This document shows, one piece after another, positions 21,075-45,973 of a stretch of 64,000 nt of DNA. This DNA comes from an uncultured Verrucomicrobiota bacterium (GTDB lineage Bacteria; Verrucomicrobiota; Kiritimatiellia; Kiritimatiellales; Tichowtungiaceae). The notes beneath the pieces were generated by a model. It was not told where the DNA came from, ran no database searches, and saw only the letters and a program-made list of their open reading frames with translations. Where the stretch lies: assembly GCA_903826865.1 (NCBI GenBank), contig CAIKGD010000016.1, positions 25,885 through 89,884 of the forward strand, given 5' to 3'. The first letter of the stretch is position 1, and each line of letters starts with the position of its first letter. A program made the translations under genes and the position numbers.

Positions 21075-22286
21075 TCAATCTCCGTAGCCGTAGTTGTCCA
21101 CCACGAAGTCGAGGTCTTTGTCGCCGCGGCCGGACAGGTTGACGAGAATGGTGCCGGACTTCATCTCTTTGGCTTTTTTCATGGCGAAGGCGACGGCGTG
21201 CGCGCTTTCGAGCGCCGGGATGATGCCTTCCGAGCGGCAGAGGGTGAAGAATCCGTTGAGGCATTCCTTGTCGTCGATGGCGGTGTATTTTATGCGGCCT
21301 TCATCTTTAAGGTGGCTGTGTTCGGGGCCGACGCCGGGATAGTCAAGTCCGCTGGCGATGGAGTAGACCGGCGAGGGCTCGCCTTTTTCGTCCTGCAGGA
21401 GGTAGCACTTGAAGCCGTGGATGATGCCGGGTTTGCCGTAGGTCGCGGTGGCGGCGTGGTCGCCGGTTTTCGGTCCGCGGCCCAGCGGTTCAACACCCCA
21501 GATTTCGCACGGGTCGTTGAGGAAGCCGGAGAAGAGGCCCATCGCGTTGCTGCCGCCGCCGACGCAGGCGGTGATGAGGTTCGGCAGTCCGCCGGTCATT
21601 TCCAGAAACTGTTCGCGCGCTTCGACGCCGACGACGTGCTGGAAGTCGCGCACCATCATCGGGAACGGATGCGGGCCGACGACAGAGCCGATGCAGTAGA
21701 TGGAGTTGACCGGATCGGTCAGGTAGGCCACGAACGCGGAATCAACGGCTTCTTTCAGGGTTTTGAGTCCGGCGGAAACCGGCACAACTTTAGCGCCGAG
21801 CAGTTTCATGCGCACGACGTTCGGATGCTCTTTGATGATGTCCACTTCACCCATGTGGATTTCGCATTCAAGGCCGAAGTAGGCGGCGGCGGTGGCGAGC
21901 GCGACGCCGTGCTGGCCCGCGCCGGTTTCGGCGATGAGCTTTTTCTTGCCCATATATTTAGCCAGCAGGCCTTCGCCCATGCAGTGGTTGATTTTGTGCG
22001 CGCCGGTGTGGTTCAGGTCTTCGCGCTTGAGGTAAATCTGCGCGCCGCCGCATTTTTCGGAAAGCCGGGCGGCGTGATAGACGGGCGTCGGGCGGCCCTG
22101 ATAGTGCTTGCGGATGGAGCGCAGTTCTTCGATAAAGCGGTGCGAGCGGCTAATTTTAAGGTAAGCGTCGTTGATTTCTTTCATCGGGCCGACGAGCTGC
22201 GGCGGGATATAGGCTCCGCCGTACTGTCCGAAACGGCCTTCTGCATCGGGGGTGTTCTCCAGATAATGGCGATAATCTTTTTTCAT
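21075..22286 (-). CDS. trpB: Tryptophan synthase beta subunit, paralog 1
   Basis: [28 protein letters not shown] lysine motif, [21 protein letters not shown]. Confidence 0.96.
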
Positions 22287-23147: not shown

Positions 23148-23792
23148 ATGGATGTTTCTATGAGCGTGTTTGTTAAAATCTGCGGAATCTGCTCCAAGAA
23201 CGATCTGGAGCAGATTTGCGCTTTAGAGCCGGACGCGATCGGCTTTATTTTCTGGCCGCGGGCCAAACGCTACGTGCGCCCCGAGCAGGTCGCCAGCTGG
23301 CTGAAAAGTATTCCCGAGCAGATTAAAAAGGTCGGTGTCTTTGTGGAACCGCCGCCCGGCGAGGTCGAAGCGGTGGCTATCGCCTGCCACCTCGACATTA
23401 TTCAGATCCATCTGATTTCCAATGACTGGAAAATCGAGCGCCCGCTTTTTCAGGGGCTGGAAACCTGGATCTCGCCGCGCATGGGCGAAGGAGTCACCCG
23501 CAGTATTCTGCACGCGGTTGAGCCCGAACCTTCCGTATTGCTGGCCGATTCGTTTGATCCGGCCACGGTCGGCGGCACCGGCAAGCTCAGCAGCTGGGAC
23601 CGCGCGATCGCCCTGAAAACCGAAGTCAGAATACCGGTCATGCTGGCGGGCGGCCTCACGCCCGAAAATGTGCGCGATGCGATCACCGCAGTAAAACCGT
23701 GGGGCGTAGATGTCAGCTCCGGTGTCGAAAAAGAGCCGGGCGTCAAAGAACTCCGCAAAGTAAAGCAGTTTATAGAAAGAGCAAGACAATGA
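23148..23792 (+). CDS. trpF: Phosphoribosylanthranilate isomerase
   Basis: [52 protein letters not shown]. Confidence 0.96.
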
Positions 23793-24991
23793 AATCAGCC
23801 CGGCCCGATTCGCAGGGGCACTTCGGCCCGTACGGCGGCATCTTTGTTCCTGAAACCCTGATGGAGCCGCTCCGCGAACTGACGCGGGTTTACAAAGTTG
23901 CACAGAAAGATCCCGCTTTCAAAAAGGAACTCGATTACTACCTGCGCGAGTATGTCGGCCGTCCGTCGCCGCTCTGGTTCGCGCAGCGGATGACCGCACA
24001 GCTCGGCGGTCCGAAAATTTATCTCAAACGCGAAGACCTCAACCACACCGGCGCGCACAAAATCAATAATGTGGTCGGACAGGCGCTGCTGGCGCGGCGG
24101 CTGGGCAAAACGCGGCTGATCGCCGAAACCGGCGCAGGCCAGCACGGCGTCGCTACCGCCACTGCTGCCGCGCTCTTCGGTATGGAGTGTACCGTTTACA
24201 TGGGCAAAGTGGATATGGAGCGGCAGGCGCTGAATGTTTTCCGCATGGAAAGCCTCGGCGCGAAAGTCGTTGCCGTTACCGCCGGACAGCAGACGCTCAA
24301 AGAGGCGATTAACGAAGCGATGCGCGACTGGGTCAGCAACCTGCGCAACACGCACTATGTTCTCGGCACCGCTTTCGGCCCGCATCCGTACCCGATGATC
24401 GTGCGCGATTTCCAGAGCGTCATCGGCAAAGAAGCGCGCAAACAGATTCTGAAAGCCGAAGGACGCCTGCCGGCCGCCGTCATCGCCTGCGTCGGCGGCG
24501 GCAGCAACGCGATCGGCATTTTCAGCGCCTTTATAAAAGATGAAGGCGTCCGTCTGATCGGCGTCGAAGCCGGCGGACTCGGCATTGTACCCGGCAAACA
24601 CGCCGCGCGTTTCGCCGGCGGCAAAGTCGGCGTGCTGCAGGGCACAAAAAGTTACGTTCTGCAGGATGATGACGGACAGATTCTGCTGACGCACTCCGTC
24701 AGCGCCGGACTCGATTACGCCTCCGTCGGCCCCGAACACGCGATGCTGCACGACACCGGCCGCGCGGAATACACCTACATAGAAGACGCCGACGCCGTGG
24801 CCGGATTCGATCAGCTCGCGCAGTGGGAAGGCATTCTGCCCGCGCTCGAAAGCTCGCATGCCATCGCATGGGTCGTAAAAAATGCCGGGCAGTTTGCCAA
24901 AAACGACATTGTCATCATCAACGTTTCCGGCCGCGGCGACAAAGACGTTCAGCAGATCGCAGAGTGGAAAAAGGGACAGAGTACAAAATAA
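23789..24991 (+). CDS. trpB: Tryptophan synthase beta subunit, paralog 2
   Basis: [53 protein letters not shown]; overlaps trpF end. Confidence 0.97.
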
Positions 24992-25002
24992 GAAAGGATG
25001 CC

Positions 25003-25851
25003 ATGCACAGAGCAAAGAAGGTTGAGCGGTGGTTAGGTGTCGCAATCAGCGGATTCTTTATTCTTACTGCAACGGCCGAAAAACTGCCGCTTCCGGCAGA
25101 CGGGGAATATATTGCCAACGACATGGAGAGTCAGCAACTCGCTCTGGCCGGGAAAATTGTAAAAATAAAGTTCAACCGGATATCCTATGCAGAAAAAGCA
25201 AAGGGTGAGCTGTACGCCGGCAATCTGCGTTCGTGTGTAAAACCGCAAGGGGACAGCTATGGCGACGTACCGGGAGTTCAGGTGCGGTTTCCAAAGGAAG
25301 GAGTGGGCTTTTTTTCAAAATTTATTCCTAAACCCGGAATTGGAACAGAAGAGTGGATTGCTTCCATGATCGCGTCTGATCGCGGGGAAGTCTACGTTCA
25401 GATCAGCACAAACGCCAAGGCAGGCTTTCTAGCCCTCGGGGATCGTTGTGAAAAGGACGGCGACGAAGCAAAATACGGATGGTCCGCAGACACAGAAGTT
25501 CCGGATTTAGCGGGTCAGAAGAAAGTATCCGTCAGCGATCTGGCTCTTTTTCCGGAACAACTGAATGGAAAAGTTGTGCAGCTGGAGTTTTACCAAGTAA
25601 AACGCATCAAGCAGAAAACGGCTGAAGAATTCAGTGCCTTCGTTTCTTGCGGCAGCGGACACGCTATGATTCCGATTACATTTCCGGCCGCGGCAAGCGT
25701 GTTCTTTAAGGAAATAGCGGATCGGCAAACGGATCCTAAAGCGTGCAGCGTATATGCCCAAGTAACGGTCAGCCCGAAAGGCCTGGTTTCTTTGGAGGCA
25801 AAAGGCCGGCGCGCAATCGGGGAAGGCGTAGATGCCGCATATAAGTGGTAA
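25003..25851 (+). CDS. Hypothetical secreted protein with two copies of a '..YxW'-ending domain
   Basis: Signal-like N-terminus; two segments resembling the C-terminal repeats of the 40943-42970 protein. Confidence 0.7.
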   Translation: MHRAKKVERWLGVAISGFFILTATAEKLPLPADGEYIANDMESQQLALAGKIVKIKFNRISYAEKAKGELYAGNLRSCVKPQGDSYGDVPGVQVRFPKEGVGFFSKFIPKPGIGTEEWIASMIASDRGEVYVQISTNAKAGFLALGDRCEKDGDEAKYGWSADTEVPDLAGQKKVSVSDLALFPEQLNGKVVQLEFYQVKRIKQKTAEEFSAFVSCGSGHAMIPITFPAAASVFFKEIADRQTDPKACSVYAQVTVSPKGLVSLEAKGRRAIGEGVDAAYKW

Positions 25852-25863
25852 AGGGGTTCCGCA

Positions 25864-26742
25864 ATGCCCATTAAAAGCATGACAGGCTTCGGCGCGGCCT
25901 CTGCGCGTTCAGAAAGCGCGCTGGTAACGGTCGAGCTGAGCGCGGTAAACCGCAAACAGCTTGATGTCGTAGTTCGTCTGCCGCCGCCGCTCACGGCGCT
26001 CGAGTCGCGCGTCCAGAAAATCATTCAGGAACATATTTCACGCGGGCGGATCAGCGGCGCGGTTCTGCTGGAGTCCGCGAACGGCGGCGCGATGATGCAG
26101 ATTGATGAGAAACGCGCTGCCGAAACGATCGGCAGGCTGCGAAGCGCAGCGAAAAAACTGAACCTCAAGGACGATTTGAGCGCCGGAGTGCTTTTGCAGA
26201 TTCCCGGGTTGCTGAAAATGCAGACGGCCGAACAGCATCCGGAAGAAATTTTCCAAACACTGGAAAAAGCTCTGCTGGCCGCGCTGAAGAAGCTTGATGT
26301 AATGCGGCTTCGTGAAGGCAAAGCGCTTGAAAACGATCTGCTGGCGCGGCTCAAGCTGCTTGAACAGATGCTTGCGGCCGTTAAACCCCGCGCGCCGCAG
26401 ATTGTTTCCGGTTACCGGAAAAAACTTTTACAGGGACTGGATGCGGCGGGACTGAAAAATGCCGCCATGGACGAACGGATCATCAAAGAGATCGCGCTGT
26501 TCGCCGAGCGCAGCGATATTGCAGAAGAGATTACGCGGCTGGAAAGCCACCTGCAGCAGTTTAAAAAAATTCTGCGCGGCGGCGAGCCCGCCGGACGTCC
26601 GCTCGATTTTCTGGCGCAGGAGCTTTTCCGCGAAATCAACACGATCGGTTCGAAAGCGAACGATCTGAAAATCACGGAACAGGTGGTGCGTTTTAAAACC
26701 GAGCTCGAACGCATCCGGGAGCAGATTCAGAATGTCGAGTAA
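25864..26742 (+). CDS. YicC family endoribonuclease-like protein
   Basis: IKSMTGFGAA N-terminus; C-terminal EINTIGSKANDLKITEQVVRFKTELERIREQIQNVE. Confidence 0.95.
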   Translation: MPIKSMTGFGAASARSESALVTVELSAVNRKQLDVVVRLPPPLTALESRVQKIIQEHISRGRISGAVLLESANGGAMMQIDEKRAAETIGRLRSAAKKLNLKDDLSAGVLLQIPGLLKMQTAEQHPEEIFQTLEKALLAALKKLDVMRLREGKALENDLLARLKLLEQMLAAVKPRAPQIVSGYRKKLLQGLDAAGLKNAAMDERIIKEIALFAERSDIAEEITRLESHLQQFKKILRGGEPAGRPLDFLAQELFREINTIGSKANDLKITEQVVRFKTELERIREQIQNVE

Positions 26743-40042: not shown

Positions 40043-40891
40043 ATGATCCGCAAAGAAAGAGCCACAATAAAACACCTGATCCAGCTGCAGGATCTGGTAG
40101 CCGCCCGCGCCCAGCAGCAGGCCTCTATGCCTTCGCAACGGCTGCAGCAGCTCGACAAGAGCATCAAAACGCTCGATGACGAACTGCCGATCGAACTCAA
40201 GACGCACTTCAACCGCCTCCTGCAGAAAAGCATTGAAGCCATTGTTCCGGTTACCGGAGACAACTGCTCCGGCTGCGGTTTTGCGCTGACCAAAACCATG
40301 GTTAACAGCATTCATGCCGGCGATGAGCTCAACCGCTGTCCAAACTGCACCCGGATCCTCTACGCGCCCGCCGTACCGCTCACCCGCCGCTCGCCGCGCC
40401 GCCGCTGGGGCGATCCCGTCAAGCGCGGCGTCGAACGCTTTTCCGCACCTGAACTGATGATTGCTTCACTCAAAGGAACAACCAAAGAAGATGTTCTGCT
40501 GGAAATGTGCGAAACCCTGCGCGCGGAAGGGTATATCGAAAACTGTACCGACCTGCACGACGCAGCGTTGCGTCGTGAAGCGATTGTCGCTACTGCGGTT
40601 GAAAACGGCATCGCTTTCCCGCACGTGCGCGGGGTCGAAGGTGGCGGGCTGACACTGACGCTGGGCATCAGCAAAAAAGGCATTAAATTCGGAGCACCGT
40701 CCGACAAGCCCTCGAAAATTTTCTTCTACATGGTCATTCCGACCGCCGCGAGCGCCTTCTACCTGAAACTGCTTTCCGGTCTGACGAAAAGTTTCGCAAC
40801 CAAAGAAGCGCGCGACTCACTGCTTAATGCCAAAACGCAGGAAGATCTGTGGAAGGCGCTGGTTAAAGCCACCAAAAAAATGATCCAGTAA
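40043..40891 (+). CDS. Coiled-coil Zn-ribbon fused to PTS EIIA (fructose/mannitol type) domain
   Basis: CSGCGFALTKTMVNSIHAGDELNRCPNC zinc ribbon; IVATAVENGIAFPHVRG EIIA active-site-like His. Confidence 0.8.
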   Translation: MIRKERATIKHLIQLQDLVAARAQQQASMPSQRLQQLDKSIKTLDDELPIELKTHFNRLLQKSIEAIVPVTGDNCSGCGFALTKTMVNSIHAGDELNRCPNCTRILYAPAVPLTRRSPRRRWGDPVKRGVERFSAPELMIASLKGTTKEDVLLEMCETLRAEGYIENCTDLHDAALRREAIVATAVENGIAFPHVRGVEGGGLTLTLGISKKGIKFGAPSDKPSKIFFYMVIPTAASAFYLKLLSGLTKSFATKEARDSLLNAKTQEDLWKALVKATKKMIQ

Positions 40892-40942: not shown

Positions 40943-42970
40943 TTACCAGCCGTATTCATTTTTGCTTTTGCTGTAACGGGTGCCAACAGCCTCCAGCTGA
41001 AAGGAATGGTCTTTTCCAACCTTGATGGGGCGCTTGCCATGCACGCGCAGGTAAACAGTTTTATAGCCGACATCTTGCTTGTCTGGAAGAGGCTCAAAAA
41101 ACTTTTTCCCCTCTTCAGGGATCAGCACGGGGGGGGCCAATATATAGCCGTTTTTACTATAGCCGCAGTAGACCTTATAAAGCCCGGCGGCTATTTTTTC
41201 AAAATGAAGAACATAGTTAAAAGAGGTTTTAACAACCTTCCCGTCCAAATTAAGACAAGCGGCCTTTAGTTCATTTATATCCATTTCCTTTTTATAGGGG
41301 GCCGGGGGGAGGCCGGAAGCAGCCTCTGCCTCCGGGGCGGTTTCTGAGCTGGGTTGCCGTACAAACTCTTCGCTCTGTGCGGGCATCGTCGTCGGCCAAG
41401 TGTATTCATTTTCGCTTTGGCTGTAACGGGAGCCAACAGCTACCAGCTGAAAGGAAGTGTTTCCAATGCGTATGGGGGTTTTACTGTGTACCTGCACGTA
41501 AACAACAGTTTGGTCGTTATCGCCCGGTACGCCAGAAGTGGCTTTTACGGATAACGCCGCAAAAATCTTTTTACCATTTTCCGGTATCAGCATGAGGCAA
41601 GTTTGAGGGTGAACACCTCTTGAGTAATTAATGGGCGTCATGTTGCCGCAGACGGCACCGTACAGGGTTTCACTCACTGGCGAAAATCTTTGAACGTAGT
41701 TGATAGTTAGCTTAATAATTTCCCCGTCCAAATAGGGGAGCGTCGACTTTAAATCATCCACGCATATTTCTTTTTTATGAGGTGCCGGCAACAGCTCGGG
41801 GGCGGCAAAGCTGCTGGAATTTTTCTTTAAGGAGACAAATTTTTTTACATATGTCTTTGACAGCGCTTGTCCTTCGGCGATTTGTGCTGGTGTCATGTCT
41901 TTTACAATCAGCGGCAGACGATCCGTTGCTTGCTTATTCCCTTGAGTTGCTGCGGCACTTATCCATGCATACGCTTGTACAGGGTCATACGAAACGCCAC
42001 CGCTCGTGGCGTAAGCCCGCCCCATCGAAAATTGCGCCAGTGCATGTCCCTGCTCAGCTGCACAGCGATACAGCCGCACCGCCTCTTTGTCGTCGCGAGA
42101 AACCCCCAGCCCGCGGCGATAGAAATCTCCTAGTATGAATTGCGCCTCTGCATTTCCCTGTACAGCTGCAGGCTGGAGCCACTTTATCGCTTCCGCATAG
42201 TCCTTTGGGACGCCATCGCCTTTGGCGTAAGCAACTCCTAGATCGACCCGCGCTTTTTCATTTCCCTGTTCTGCCTTCTGCCGCAGGACAGATAAATCTT
42301 TTCTTTCTTTGGCGGGATCAACTGGCGTCGCATTATCGTTCTCGGCAAGTGCAGGCGGCGACGACGGAACTGATGGCGGAATTTGTTCTGTTTCAGGCCT
42401 CTGGGATAATGGAGCGCGACCAGCAACAGGGGCTGTTTTATCGCCGGAGGGTCTTCCTGACCCTGTTTCGGGCACCATCGTCATCCATTTTTGGTAAGCC
42501 GCCAAACCGGCATCCCGCACATCTGTTACTCCGCGTTCTGTGACGAGTTGCCCGTCTCGTATTATTATCAGCGCGGGAATGCGCACGCCGCAAAATCCGG
42601 CTCTCTTGATCTGCTTCAGAACCTTGGTTTCTTCGGAGTCATAGGGAACGGCCAGCCACGGCATTTTGGTATTCTGCATACACTGCAGCATTTCCTTCGA
42701 ACTATTAACGGCACCGACATAGATGATTTCAAAGTCACAGCCTGTTTGTTTGAGGCTGGAATAAAGATCAAGAAGCTTCGTTGTAAAGCTTTTGCAAGGC
42801 TCAGCCTCTCCGGCAAAATAGAAACCAACGATTTTCCCAGAGAGCACGGCTTCTTTTTTTTCGCCAGCTGAATTGATAAACACCGTGCCCGCCGCTTTGA
42901 TCATGTCCTCGGCCGGTACAATGTTCGTCAGACAAAAGACAAGAAGCAGAACAAAACGCAGCTTTTTCAT
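40943..42970 (-). CDS. Secreted thioredoxin-like + Sel1-repeat protein with two C-terminal '..YxW' repeats
   Basis: Signal peptide; Sel1 repeats (KARVDLGVAYAKGDGVPKDYAEAIKWLQPAAVQGNAEAQFILGDFY); duplicated C-terminal ~120-aa segment. Confidence 0.85.
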   Translation of the reverse strand: MKKLRFVLLLVFCLTNIVPAEDMIKAAGTVFINSAGEKKEAVLSGKIVGFYFAGEAEPCKSFTTKLLDLYSSLKQTGCDFEIIYVGAVNSSKEMLQCMQNTKMPWLAVPYDSEETKVLKQIKRAGFCGVRIPALIIIRDGQLVTERGVTDVRDAGLAAYQKWMTMVPETGSGRPSGDKTAPVAGRAPLSQRPETEQIPPSVPSSPPALAENDNATPVDPAKERKDLSVLRQKAEQGNEKARVDLGVAYAKGDGVPKDYAEAIKWLQPAAVQGNAEAQFILGDFYRRGLGVSRDDKEAVRLYRCAAEQGHALAQFSMGRAYATSGGVSYDPVQAYAWISAAATQGNKQATDRLPLIVKDMTPAQIAEGQALSKTYVKKFVSLKKNSSSFAAPELLPAPHKKEICVDDLKSTLPYLDGEIIKLTINYVQRFSPVSETLYGAVCGNMTPINYSRGVHPQTCLMLIPENGKKIFAALSVKATSGVPGDNDQTVVYVQVHSKTPIRIGNTSFQLVAVGSRYSQSENEYTWPTTMPAQSEEFVRQPSSETAPEAEAASGLPPAPYKKEMDINELKAACLNLDGKVVKTSFNYVLHFEKIAAGLYKVYCGYSKNGYILAPPVLIPEEGKKFFEPLPDKQDVGYKTVYLRVHGKRPIKVGKDHSFQLEAVGTRYSKSKNEYGW

Positions 42971-43078: not shown

Positions 43079-45973
43079 CTATTCCGCGAGGCGGACGGTG
43101 ATACGATAAAAGCCTTTGGTGTCGGCGCTGTGAACGGTGTCGGTCCAGCAGTTTTGCGGCCAGACGATTCCGGTTTCCAGTGTTTGGAACCTTTCTGTCA
43201 ACGACGGCGTCCATTCGATGGTATAAACGCGATCTTCAACGGCGTTCCAATTCAGCACATAGCGGTCGGTCTGACGAAGTTCAAAGCGGGATTGTGAATC
43301 AAGCGGACTGAATCCGGCCAGTACTTCCGCCGCGTTACTCAAACCGTCGCGGTCGGCGTCAAGCGCCGGATCCACAACTGTACAGTTTCCGATGATAACG
43401 TCTTTGCTGTCGCGCACCAGCATGCTGGTTTTTGTTCCGTCAAGCCAGAGCAGGATCTTAGGCCCCGGTACATTGGTGCGGACATTTTCAAAGCTGAGCT
43501 GCATCCGGTTTTCGCCGCCGGCAAGCCTGTACACGTTGCCGTAGTGCAGCCCGGTGAATGTGTTGGTGACGGCGCTTTCCTGAAGCACATTCAGTTTTTC
43601 GGCGGCGACCCGGCGGCCTTCGTCGGGCAGTTCGAGATAATCGGCGCCGCCCTCACTCCAGATAAGAATTTCCGGGTTAAGGCGTGTGGAGGCCGAATAC
43701 TCAAGCGAAGTCTGTTTCCACCACGTTCCGTCGGCAAATTTGAAAATGCGCCCGTTGCCGAATCCGTAAAAGCAGCCGCTGATGGCTGTGCGGGTGACAT
43801 TGGTAAGTCGCTGAACTTCCACGTACCCGTTTAAGCCGCTGACATTCATTCGCCACCGGCCGGTTTGCAGCCAGTTGGTAATAGTGACGGCCGGGCGGTA
43901 GAGTGTATGCGAAGAGCTGTCGGGCGCGGTTTGCTGCCAGCACTGTCCGTTGACAAGTGCGAAAACCCGTTTGTTCTGCCAGCCGCGGAAGTAGCCGTCG
44001 ATTTCGCTGACAACCGGAGCGTTGACCGGCGCGCCGCAGAGTTCCGCAGTGCAGGTGCCGATGACGGCACCGTCGCGGCCGAGAAACCGCAATATCTGCT
44101 GGCCGTTTTTGAGCCAGCGCCAGACGGTAACCGGCGGGGCGGTGCTGGAAATATTTTCGAACGAAATTTGTTTCCATAGAGTGCAGTCGGCCAGTTGATA
44201 GATATTTTGATAATGCAGTCCGGTGAAGGTTCCGGTAATGGCGCTTTCGGTAACGGCCAGCGGATTCACCACCACATAACCGGTGACATTAGTTACCATC
44301 AGCCGCCGCTGATGGAAGACGTTAGTGATGGTCATATACGGCCGGTACAGCGCCGGACTGACCGTTTTTGACCCGGCTGTGCTCTGCTGCCAGAACTGTC
44401 CGTTTTCAAGTTTAAAAATAGTGTCGCCGCTCCAGCCGTAGAAATTTCCGGCAATACGCGAGCGGCTGGAAACGGTGATAGTGACGGATGCGGTATTGGT
44501 TCCTGCGAGTCCGGCTGCAGCGAAAGTTGCGGTATACGTTCCGGACATCGGACGGTTCCAGTTCAGCGTACTGCTGGCCGTGCCGGTGCCGGTGACGGCA
44601 GAGAAAGTTGCGCCGGCGGGCAGAGCAGTCGCGGAAAGCGTGATGACATCGGCGCGGACGGTATTAACAGCGGTGACGGCCAGACTTAGGCTGTCGCCGA
44701 GAAAAACAAACGGATTGGTCAGGAGCTCAAACTGCGGCAGCGAACCGTGTCTGCCAGGCGTCATGTCTCCGGTCTCGGCGCCGGATGTGATAACCCATTC
44801 CGAAGCGATCCAGACGGGCGATGGTTGCAGGACGCTGTTATTGCGCACGGCCCGGCTGTCTTCGTAATCCCATGCGGCATCTGTTCCGTCGGTGTCTTTT
44901 TCTCCGTAAACATCAATCAGTGTGCCGTTGGTATGAGTTCCGCCGCAGAAAAGGAAATACGCATCATCGCCGTTTCCGTTGGCAGCTCCGCTCTCCTGTT
45001 CCGGCACGCGGTCGTATGCCGCTTGAAAGTCTGTTGCGCTGCAGGCGATGACCCATGCGGAGGCTTGCGGGACAGAACCTGCGAGCGGAATGTCGCACCA
45101 TGTTCCGCCGTTCACCTGTTTGCTCAAGTGCCAGCTGTCCGCCGACAAATTAATCGTGTGGTTACCGGCGTTGTACAGCTCGACAAAACGGCAGCTGTCG
45201 CCGCCGGTTCCGGCGGGGTCGGCAATTTCTGAGATCATCAGGTTCGGACGCGGCGAAACCGTGATGACGATCGTTTCGCTGTCGGCTCCGTCTTTATCTG
45301 TGGCACAGAAAGTAACCGCATAAGCTCCGGCCGGTGCGGCACTGTTCCAGATGAAGGTGCCGTTTATAAAAACGGCGCCGGCCGGCAGATTGAGCGCGGT
45401 CAGTGTGACAGGATCGTTGTCCACCGGATCGGCGGCCGTAACGGTGAAGGACAGCAGACCGCGTTCAATTACTTCGCGGGTTCCGACCGGATCGAGTACC
45501 GGCGGACGGTTGCCTGCCGCGACGCTGTTTTCTACAGACACATCGTCAAGGTACAGTGTGCCGGAGCCGGTTTTGCGGAAACGGATGTATATCATATCCA
45601 GGCTGGAAAGGGGGATGATCCGCCGGTTCCACTGGTCGGTATATCCCGAGAAGGGACTGCCTGCGGCGGCTGTCCACGGGCCGTTTGTACTGGCCGAATA
45701 TTCCACAACAACGGCCGGGTCGGCGGCGGTGGTGTAACTCCAGAAAAGCAGAGTCTGCGCATGGCTGATTGGCGGAGTGATCAAATAGTCGCCGGTTGCA
45801 TTCAGCCGCGCACTGGAACTGCCGTTAGCGGCATAGGTTGTGTTTTGTTCCACGGAATTGGTGATCCAGCCTGCGGGTGGAAATGCGCCTTCAAACCCTT
45901 CCGTCCAGAGCGTTTCCGCCGGAACGGAGGAAAGGCTGCAAAAACACAACCAGATGGGCAGGAGCCGTTTCAT
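43079..45973 (-). CDS. Large secreted protein with lamin-tail-like domain and five degenerate ~65-aa repeats
   Basis: Signal peptide; LMISEIADPAGTGGDSCRFVELYNAG; repeats GxFxGxxxxxIFxLxxGxxWxQ; DADRDGLSNAAEVLAG Ca-loop. Confidence 0.75.
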   Translation of the reverse strand: MKRLLPIWLCFCSLSSVPAETLWTEGFEGAFPPAGWITNSVEQNTTYAANGSSSARLNATGDYLITPPISHAQTLLFWSYTTAADPAVVVEYSASTNGPWTAAAGSPFSGYTDQWNRRIIPLSSLDMIYIRFRKTGSGTLYLDDVSVENSVAAGNRPPVLDPVGTREVIERGLLSFTVTAADPVDNDPVTLTALNLPAGAVFINGTFIWNSAAPAGAYAVTFCATDKDGADSETIVITVSPRPNLMISEIADPAGTGGDSCRFVELYNAGNHTINLSADSWHLSKQVNGGTWCDIPLAGSVPQASAWVIACSATDFQAAYDRVPEQESGAANGNGDDAYFLFCGGTHTNGTLIDVYGEKDTDGTDAAWDYEDSRAVRNNSVLQPSPVWIASEWVITSGAETGDMTPGRHGSLPQFELLTNPFVFLGDSLSLAVTAVNTVRADVITLSATALPAGATFSAVTGTGTASSTLNWNRPMSGTYTATFAAAGLAGTNTASVTITVSSRSRIAGNFYGWSGDTIFKLENGQFWQQSTAGSKTVSPALYRPYMTITNVFHQRRLMVTNVTGYVVVNPLAVTESAITGTFTGLHYQNIYQLADCTLWKQISFENISSTAPPVTVWRWLKNGQQILRFLGRDGAVIGTCTAELCGAPVNAPVVSEIDGYFRGWQNKRVFALVNGQCWQQTAPDSSSHTLYRPAVTITNWLQTGRWRMNVSGLNGYVEVQRLTNVTRTAISGCFYGFGNGRIFKFADGTWWKQTSLEYSASTRLNPEILIWSEGGADYLELPDEGRRVAAEKLNVLQESAVTNTFTGLHYGNVYRLAGGENRMQLSFENVRTNVPGPKILLWLDGTKTSMLVRDSKDVIIGNCTVVDPALDADRDGLSNAAEVLAGFSPLDSQSRFELRQTDRYVLNWNAVEDRVYTIEWTPSLTERFQTLETGIVWPQNCWTDTVHSADTKGFYRITVRLAE

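Follow-up and report, generated by a model that had tools for sequence, protein, structure and literature searches.

The window analysed here, a stretch of 64,000 nucleotides from an uncultured Verrucomicrobiota bacterium of the class Kiritimatiellia, holds two genes whose products, P0001 and P0002, each carry two copies of a domain that ends in Y-x-W (the YxW domain). P0001 starts 12 nt past trpB and ends 13 nt ahead of a yicC-like gene. The features are listed below with their coordinates in the window.

23789-24991, + strand: trpB, upstream border of the cargo slot (Pfam PALP, E 3.2e-41).
25003-25851, + strand: P0001, 282 aa, predicted to be secreted; two tandem YxW domains of predicted OB fold and little else.
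25078-25482, + strand: P0001 YxW copy 1, residues 26-160, ending ...KYGW; profile iE 4.6e-33, with the copy itself in the profile.
25498-25848, + strand: P0001 YxW copy 2, residues 166-282, ending ...YKW and stop; profile match and AlphaFold2 model.
25864-26742, + strand: yicC-like endoribonuclease gene, downstream border of the cargo slot (Pfam YicC-like N and C).
40943-42970, - strand: P0002, 675 aa, predicted to be secreted; thioredoxin-like domain, Sel1 repeats and two YxW domains of predicted OB fold.
42557-42838, - strand: Thioredoxin_8 domain of P0002, residues 45-138, E 9.8e-12.
42044-42151, - strand: best Sel1 repeat of P0002, residues 274-309, E 1.7e-24, one of three stretches.
41396-41791, - strand: P0002 YxW copy 1, residues 394-525, ending ...EYTW; iE 1e-11 with the hold-out HMM of P0001-type copies.
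40946-41308, - strand: P0002 YxW copy 2, residues 555-675, ending ...EYGW and stop; hold-out HMM iE 2.9e-12; AlphaFold2 model.

All four copies show a whole-domain profile match, the invariant glycine and the terminal Y/F-x-W, the three features by which the YxW family is defined here. The preliminary description had called both proteins secreted in appearance, and by eye the N-termini of P0001 (MHRAKK...WLGVAISGFFILTATA, ending TATA) and P0002 (MKKLRFVLLLVFCLTNIVPA) do look like signal peptides.

The YxW gene that separates trpB from yicC is accessory cargo: it is absent from some relatives, and an esterase-like gene takes its place in others. A YxW gene adjoins trpB in the present genome and in four others of the same genus (G005, G008, G012 and G013), and the order trpB-YxW-yicC was found in the present genome, G005 and G013. 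In G002, G006 and G010 trpB runs straight into yicC with a gap of 8-25 nt and no insert, and in G001, G003, G007, G009 and G011 the slot is occupied by an ORF of 283-318 aa that is esterase-like by eye. The slot (24992-25863 in the window, L126-L134 in the relatives) is a site of exchange flanked by two housekeeping genes, holding a YxW gene, an esterase-like gene or nothing according to species within one genus. Two TrpB-type genes are close to each other on opposite strands, at 21075-22286 (-) and 23789-24991 (+), with a gene for a flavodoxin-like oxidoreductase and trpF between them.

The thioredoxin-like domain of P0002 probably does not act as a normal thiol oxidoreductase, because the first cysteine of the redox motif is gone: the sequence reads AEPC in place of the usual CxxC, which the same-genus relative L031 keeps as WCLPC. 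Near P0002, the gene at 40043-40891 (+) encodes a C4 zinc-ribbon domain (Zn_ribbon_9) fused to a PTS EIIA type 2 domain, and that at 43079-45973 (-) encodes a secreted protein of 964 aa with Ig-like and lamin-tail domains, followed by several repeats of the form F.G......I[FY].L..G..W.Q that are without a Pfam name.

Homology, predicted fold and range of the YxW family

Two tandem segments of P0001 had been described as following the same pattern as two segments of P0002. HMMs were built from one group of copies only, which avoids circularity, and were run against the 623 ORFs of at least 50 aa in the window. The HMM of P0001 and its orthologues matched P0002 at E 1.4e-25, and that of the two P0001 copies alone at E 2.3e-13; in the other direction, the HMM of the two P0002 copies alone matched P0001 at E 2.2e-8, and that of P0002-type copies matched P0001 copy 1 at iE 1.3e-7. 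An HMM of a third, single-copy group matched both proteins at about 1e-14. None of these HMMs matched a further ORF among the 623 at E<=10. The profile score of P0002 was 85.6 bits, in comparison with 10.3 for the best of 5000 shuffles. The hold-out HMMs and the shuffles thus bore out the proposed pattern. Pairwise identity between the copies of P0001 and those of P0002 is only 20-30%, as would be expected of a chance likeness between unrelated secreted proteins, but that explanation is already refuted by the hold-out E-values (down to 1e-25), the shuffles, the conserved orthologues and the identical predicted fold. The two proteins share one domain, as had been claimed, although its copies, at 117-135 aa, are slightly longer than the roughly 110 aa first given.

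An alignment of 42 YxW copies from 21 genomes was used to examine conservation. The terminal W, one glycine and a Y or F at -2 from the W are present in 42 of 42 copies, and three further positions are nearly invariant: the Y of the 'VY' strand, an F in strand one and the 'L.GK' glycine. The shared positions are mostly hydrophobic or glycine, and no conserved set of polar residues with a catalytic look was seen in the 42 copies. Where no second copy follows, the stop codon comes directly after the W (33 of 33 copies), while in the nine internal copies the W is kept and the chain runs on past it. Outside the 42, the internal copy of a divergent G012 protein (in L059) ends in YSW, and broken or truncated copies occur in L020, L031 and L045.

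In the tree of the copies, the first copies of P0001-type proteins all group together (100/98), and the second copies all form a clade of their own (98/92); because they form separate clades, this duplication predates the species split within the genus. The two copies of P0002 are sisters (98/94), and their tandem pair is read from the tree as a separate, later duplication.

A comparison of AlphaFold models had been set beforehand as a test of the shared domain. The AlphaFold2 model of P0001 copy 2 (28 alignment rows) reached pLDDT 93.2 and pTM 0.84, and that of P0002 copy 2 (17 rows, no P0001-type row among them) reached pLDDT 92.1 and pTM 0.86. The predicted folds agree, with an identical order of elements: an N-terminal helix, three strands, a helix, further strands and a short C-terminal strand at YxW. 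In both models this is the order of an OB fold, in which a barrel of five strands has a helix inserted between strands 3 and 4. Foldseek searches of the PDB with both models returned OB domains of Lys-, Asp- and Asn-tRNA synthetases, RecG, SSB, ExoVII, MCM and Cdc13 (OB4), and the lipoprotein 3f1z, which is filed near the family tRNA_anti-like (PF12869). The best matches were anticodon-binding OB domains of class II tRNA synthetases (E 1e-4 to 1e-2, TM about 0.5 or less), but these belong to cytoplasmic RNA-binding enzymes with 7-20% identity and no sequence-profile relation to YxW. From the element order and the PDB matches, the YxW domain is predicted to be an OB fold; because the TM-scores are only 0.3-0.5 and the E-values of the second model (P0002 copy 2) are weaker (best 1.1e-3), this assignment rests partly on element order and is made to the fold class, with no closer kin claimed.

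A match to a known Pfam family had been named in advance as evidence against the domain. Scans of 28-42 members with Pfam, NCBIfam and PHROGs assigned them to no curated family and gave scattered weak hits in one or two members. A sequence search of the PDB with two profiles returned nothing convincing (one designed repeat protein, E 0.0025, of which no single stretch was significant), and a literature search found no paper on the YxW domain. The description of the domain as new therefore holds for the sequence family, which has no curated match, but not for the fold, a common OB barrel that was already known; YxW is a real but divergent family of that fold.

The range of the family was determined by profile searches of genomes at successive taxonomic ranks (up to 388 genomes per rank). 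The present genome has six YxW copies in four proteins; the two carriers other than P0001 and P0002 are a protein encoded beside gltX (contig C55) and a Sel1-YxW protein (contig C7). Matches were found in 25 of 346 genomes of the Kiritimatiellia class, from 12 of its 121 genera, and 11 of the 25 belong to the present genome's own genus, itself counted. Sampling across the phylum (388 genomes) gave 13 genomes with a match, every one of them of the Kiritimatiellia. The YxW family is restricted to this class in the genomes searched. The alignment, searched against named genome contigs, matched three records, titled Verrucomicrobia, Kiritimatiellaeota and Pontiellaceae bacterium; a single-protein query of named genome contigs had no match, and no YxW match was found in viral contigs. 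Locus L059 (G012 contig 65) is a local gene amplification, a tandem row of three or more YxW genes, of which one has a diverged second half.

Carriers and comparison with known families

The YxW domain stands at the end of proteins with very different N-terminal parts. The P0001-type carrier has a signal peptide and two YxW copies only, while others have one copy after Sel1 or after an EF-hand-like part, the match of the latter being just below the Pfam cut-off. In two Ser/Thr kinase carriers that were checked, a TM segment lies between the kinase and the YxW domain at the far end; nine genomes of the class have an open frame of 813-864 aa with the YxW domain at its end, and the kinase and TM segment were verified in two of these. 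Further carriers are small and secreted, and nothing recognised as a domain precedes YxW in them. The signal peptides and TM segments, which were seen by eye, would place the domain outside the cytoplasmic membrane in the carriers read. Extracytoplasmic sensor domains of Ser/Thr kinases such as PASTA likewise end kinase-TM proteins, but differ from YxW in sequence and predicted fold.

We compared YxW with two families of secreted OB proteins, tRNA_anti-like (PF12869) and BOF (PF04076; YgiW, SipA). BOF proteins are single small proteins. They are exported and have an OB fold, as is predicted of YxW, but YxW is fused to diverse carriers, and the profile-profile probability between the two is 0.1%. 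The tRNA_anti-like domain is also a small OB barrel predicted to be secreted and in other genomes of the class is fused to Sel1-like repeats, but it is N-terminal there and YxW is C-terminal in its carriers. Two such proteins (L095 and L096, in genomes G291 and G100) are predicted to be secreted or lipoprotein-like and carry many Sel1-like repeats behind a tRNA_anti-like OB domain at the N-terminus, the reverse of the order of the OB and Sel1 parts in P0002. The hhalign probability between YxW and PF12869 was 8% (P 0.004), with a profile of only three sequences on the PF12869 side; one of 40 column-shuffled controls scored 130.6, which is unexplained, and no conclusion rests on the controls.

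That YxW is a divergent member of either family is unlikely. The fold class is common to all three, 3f1z is among the Foldseek matches, the tRNA_anti-like proteins of the class share the Sel1-like partner repeat, and a short initial helix followed by 'GKVI/GKVV' recurs on both sides. However, none of the 42 members matched either curated profile above its cut-off, PF12869 was not found in the present genome or in the same-genus genomes listed, and BOF was not found in the present genome. Together with the profile-profile values, these searches do not support placing YxW in tRNA_anti-like or BOF.

Possible function of the YxW domain

The reading that we favour, and hold to be fairly probable, is that YxW is an extracytoplasmic, non-catalytic OB-fold binding or docking module, restricted to the class and carried on the C-termini of different proteins. 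The analysis shows that the copies are homologous, what fold is predicted for them, that they are placed C-terminally on a range of carriers, and that a conserved polar catalytic set is lacking; that the domain is exported, that it works by binding and what sort of ligand it has are inferred. A point against this reading is that nucleic acids, too, are ligands of OB domains. Lying beyond the cytoplasmic membrane and fused to its carrier, the domain would grip a cell-envelope ligand (a peptide, a glycan or a partner protein) with the face of its barrel, and the ligand would hold or inform the carrier, whether a Sel1 scaffold, a thioredoxin-like domain or a Ser/Thr-kinase sensor. The last strand of the predicted domain is the invariant Y-x-W. 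Binding of periplasmic ligands by an OB protein may be compared with a precedent in a different OB family: SipA, a periplasmic BOF-family protein of Vibrio cholerae, binds antimicrobial peptides and OmpA (PMC6370654).

The strict placement of the tryptophan suits another explanation as well, that YxW is a C-terminal sorting signal, comparable to the CTD of type IX secretion or to the aromatic end of an outer-membrane barrel, whose machinery reads Y-x-W-COOH. The YxW end, a terminal aromatic residue with another one two positions ahead of it, recalls the beta-signal of the outer membrane and the ligand of the DegS PDZ domain, and the 33 copies that are not internal, on unrelated carriers, without exception stop right after the W. 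However, the nine internal copies still keep the W, the kinase carriers are membrane-anchored, and AlphaFold2 predicts a compact domain. Sorting domains are usually found on many proteins, but the present genome has only four carriers and most relatives have none. Por_Secre_tail (PF18962) matched one of the 42 copies (E 0.0031), and the full-length carrier L093 scored 16.8 bits against its cut-off of 27. We consider a sorting signal slightly less likely still than membership in a known secreted OB family.

Binding of nucleic acid outside the cytoplasm, for DNA uptake or scavenging of extracellular DNA, is highly improbable. The closest structural matches are nucleic-acid-binding OB folds, but any OB fold searched against the PDB draws mostly matches of that kind; moreover, the conserved positions include no evident set of basic surface residues, and no uptake genes were noted next to the copies examined.

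The obligatory C-terminal tryptophan is an odd and testable trait of the family, and it allows a bolder proposal, which we regard as quite improbable: YxW might be an envelope address tag specific to the class, with a dedicated receptor that reads the free C-terminal tryptophan. If so, kinases, Sel1 scaffolds and small secreted proteins would be gathered at one site of the Kiritimatiellia envelope.

For the OB folds, which are common and in which new divergent families are expected, these results overturn nothing. In a poorly studied phylum, they set the limits of a domain, supply its profile and predict its fold in sequence that was blank in curated libraries. The shared outer domain ties secreted proteins to Ser/Thr kinases, which suggests a common type of ligand or partner.
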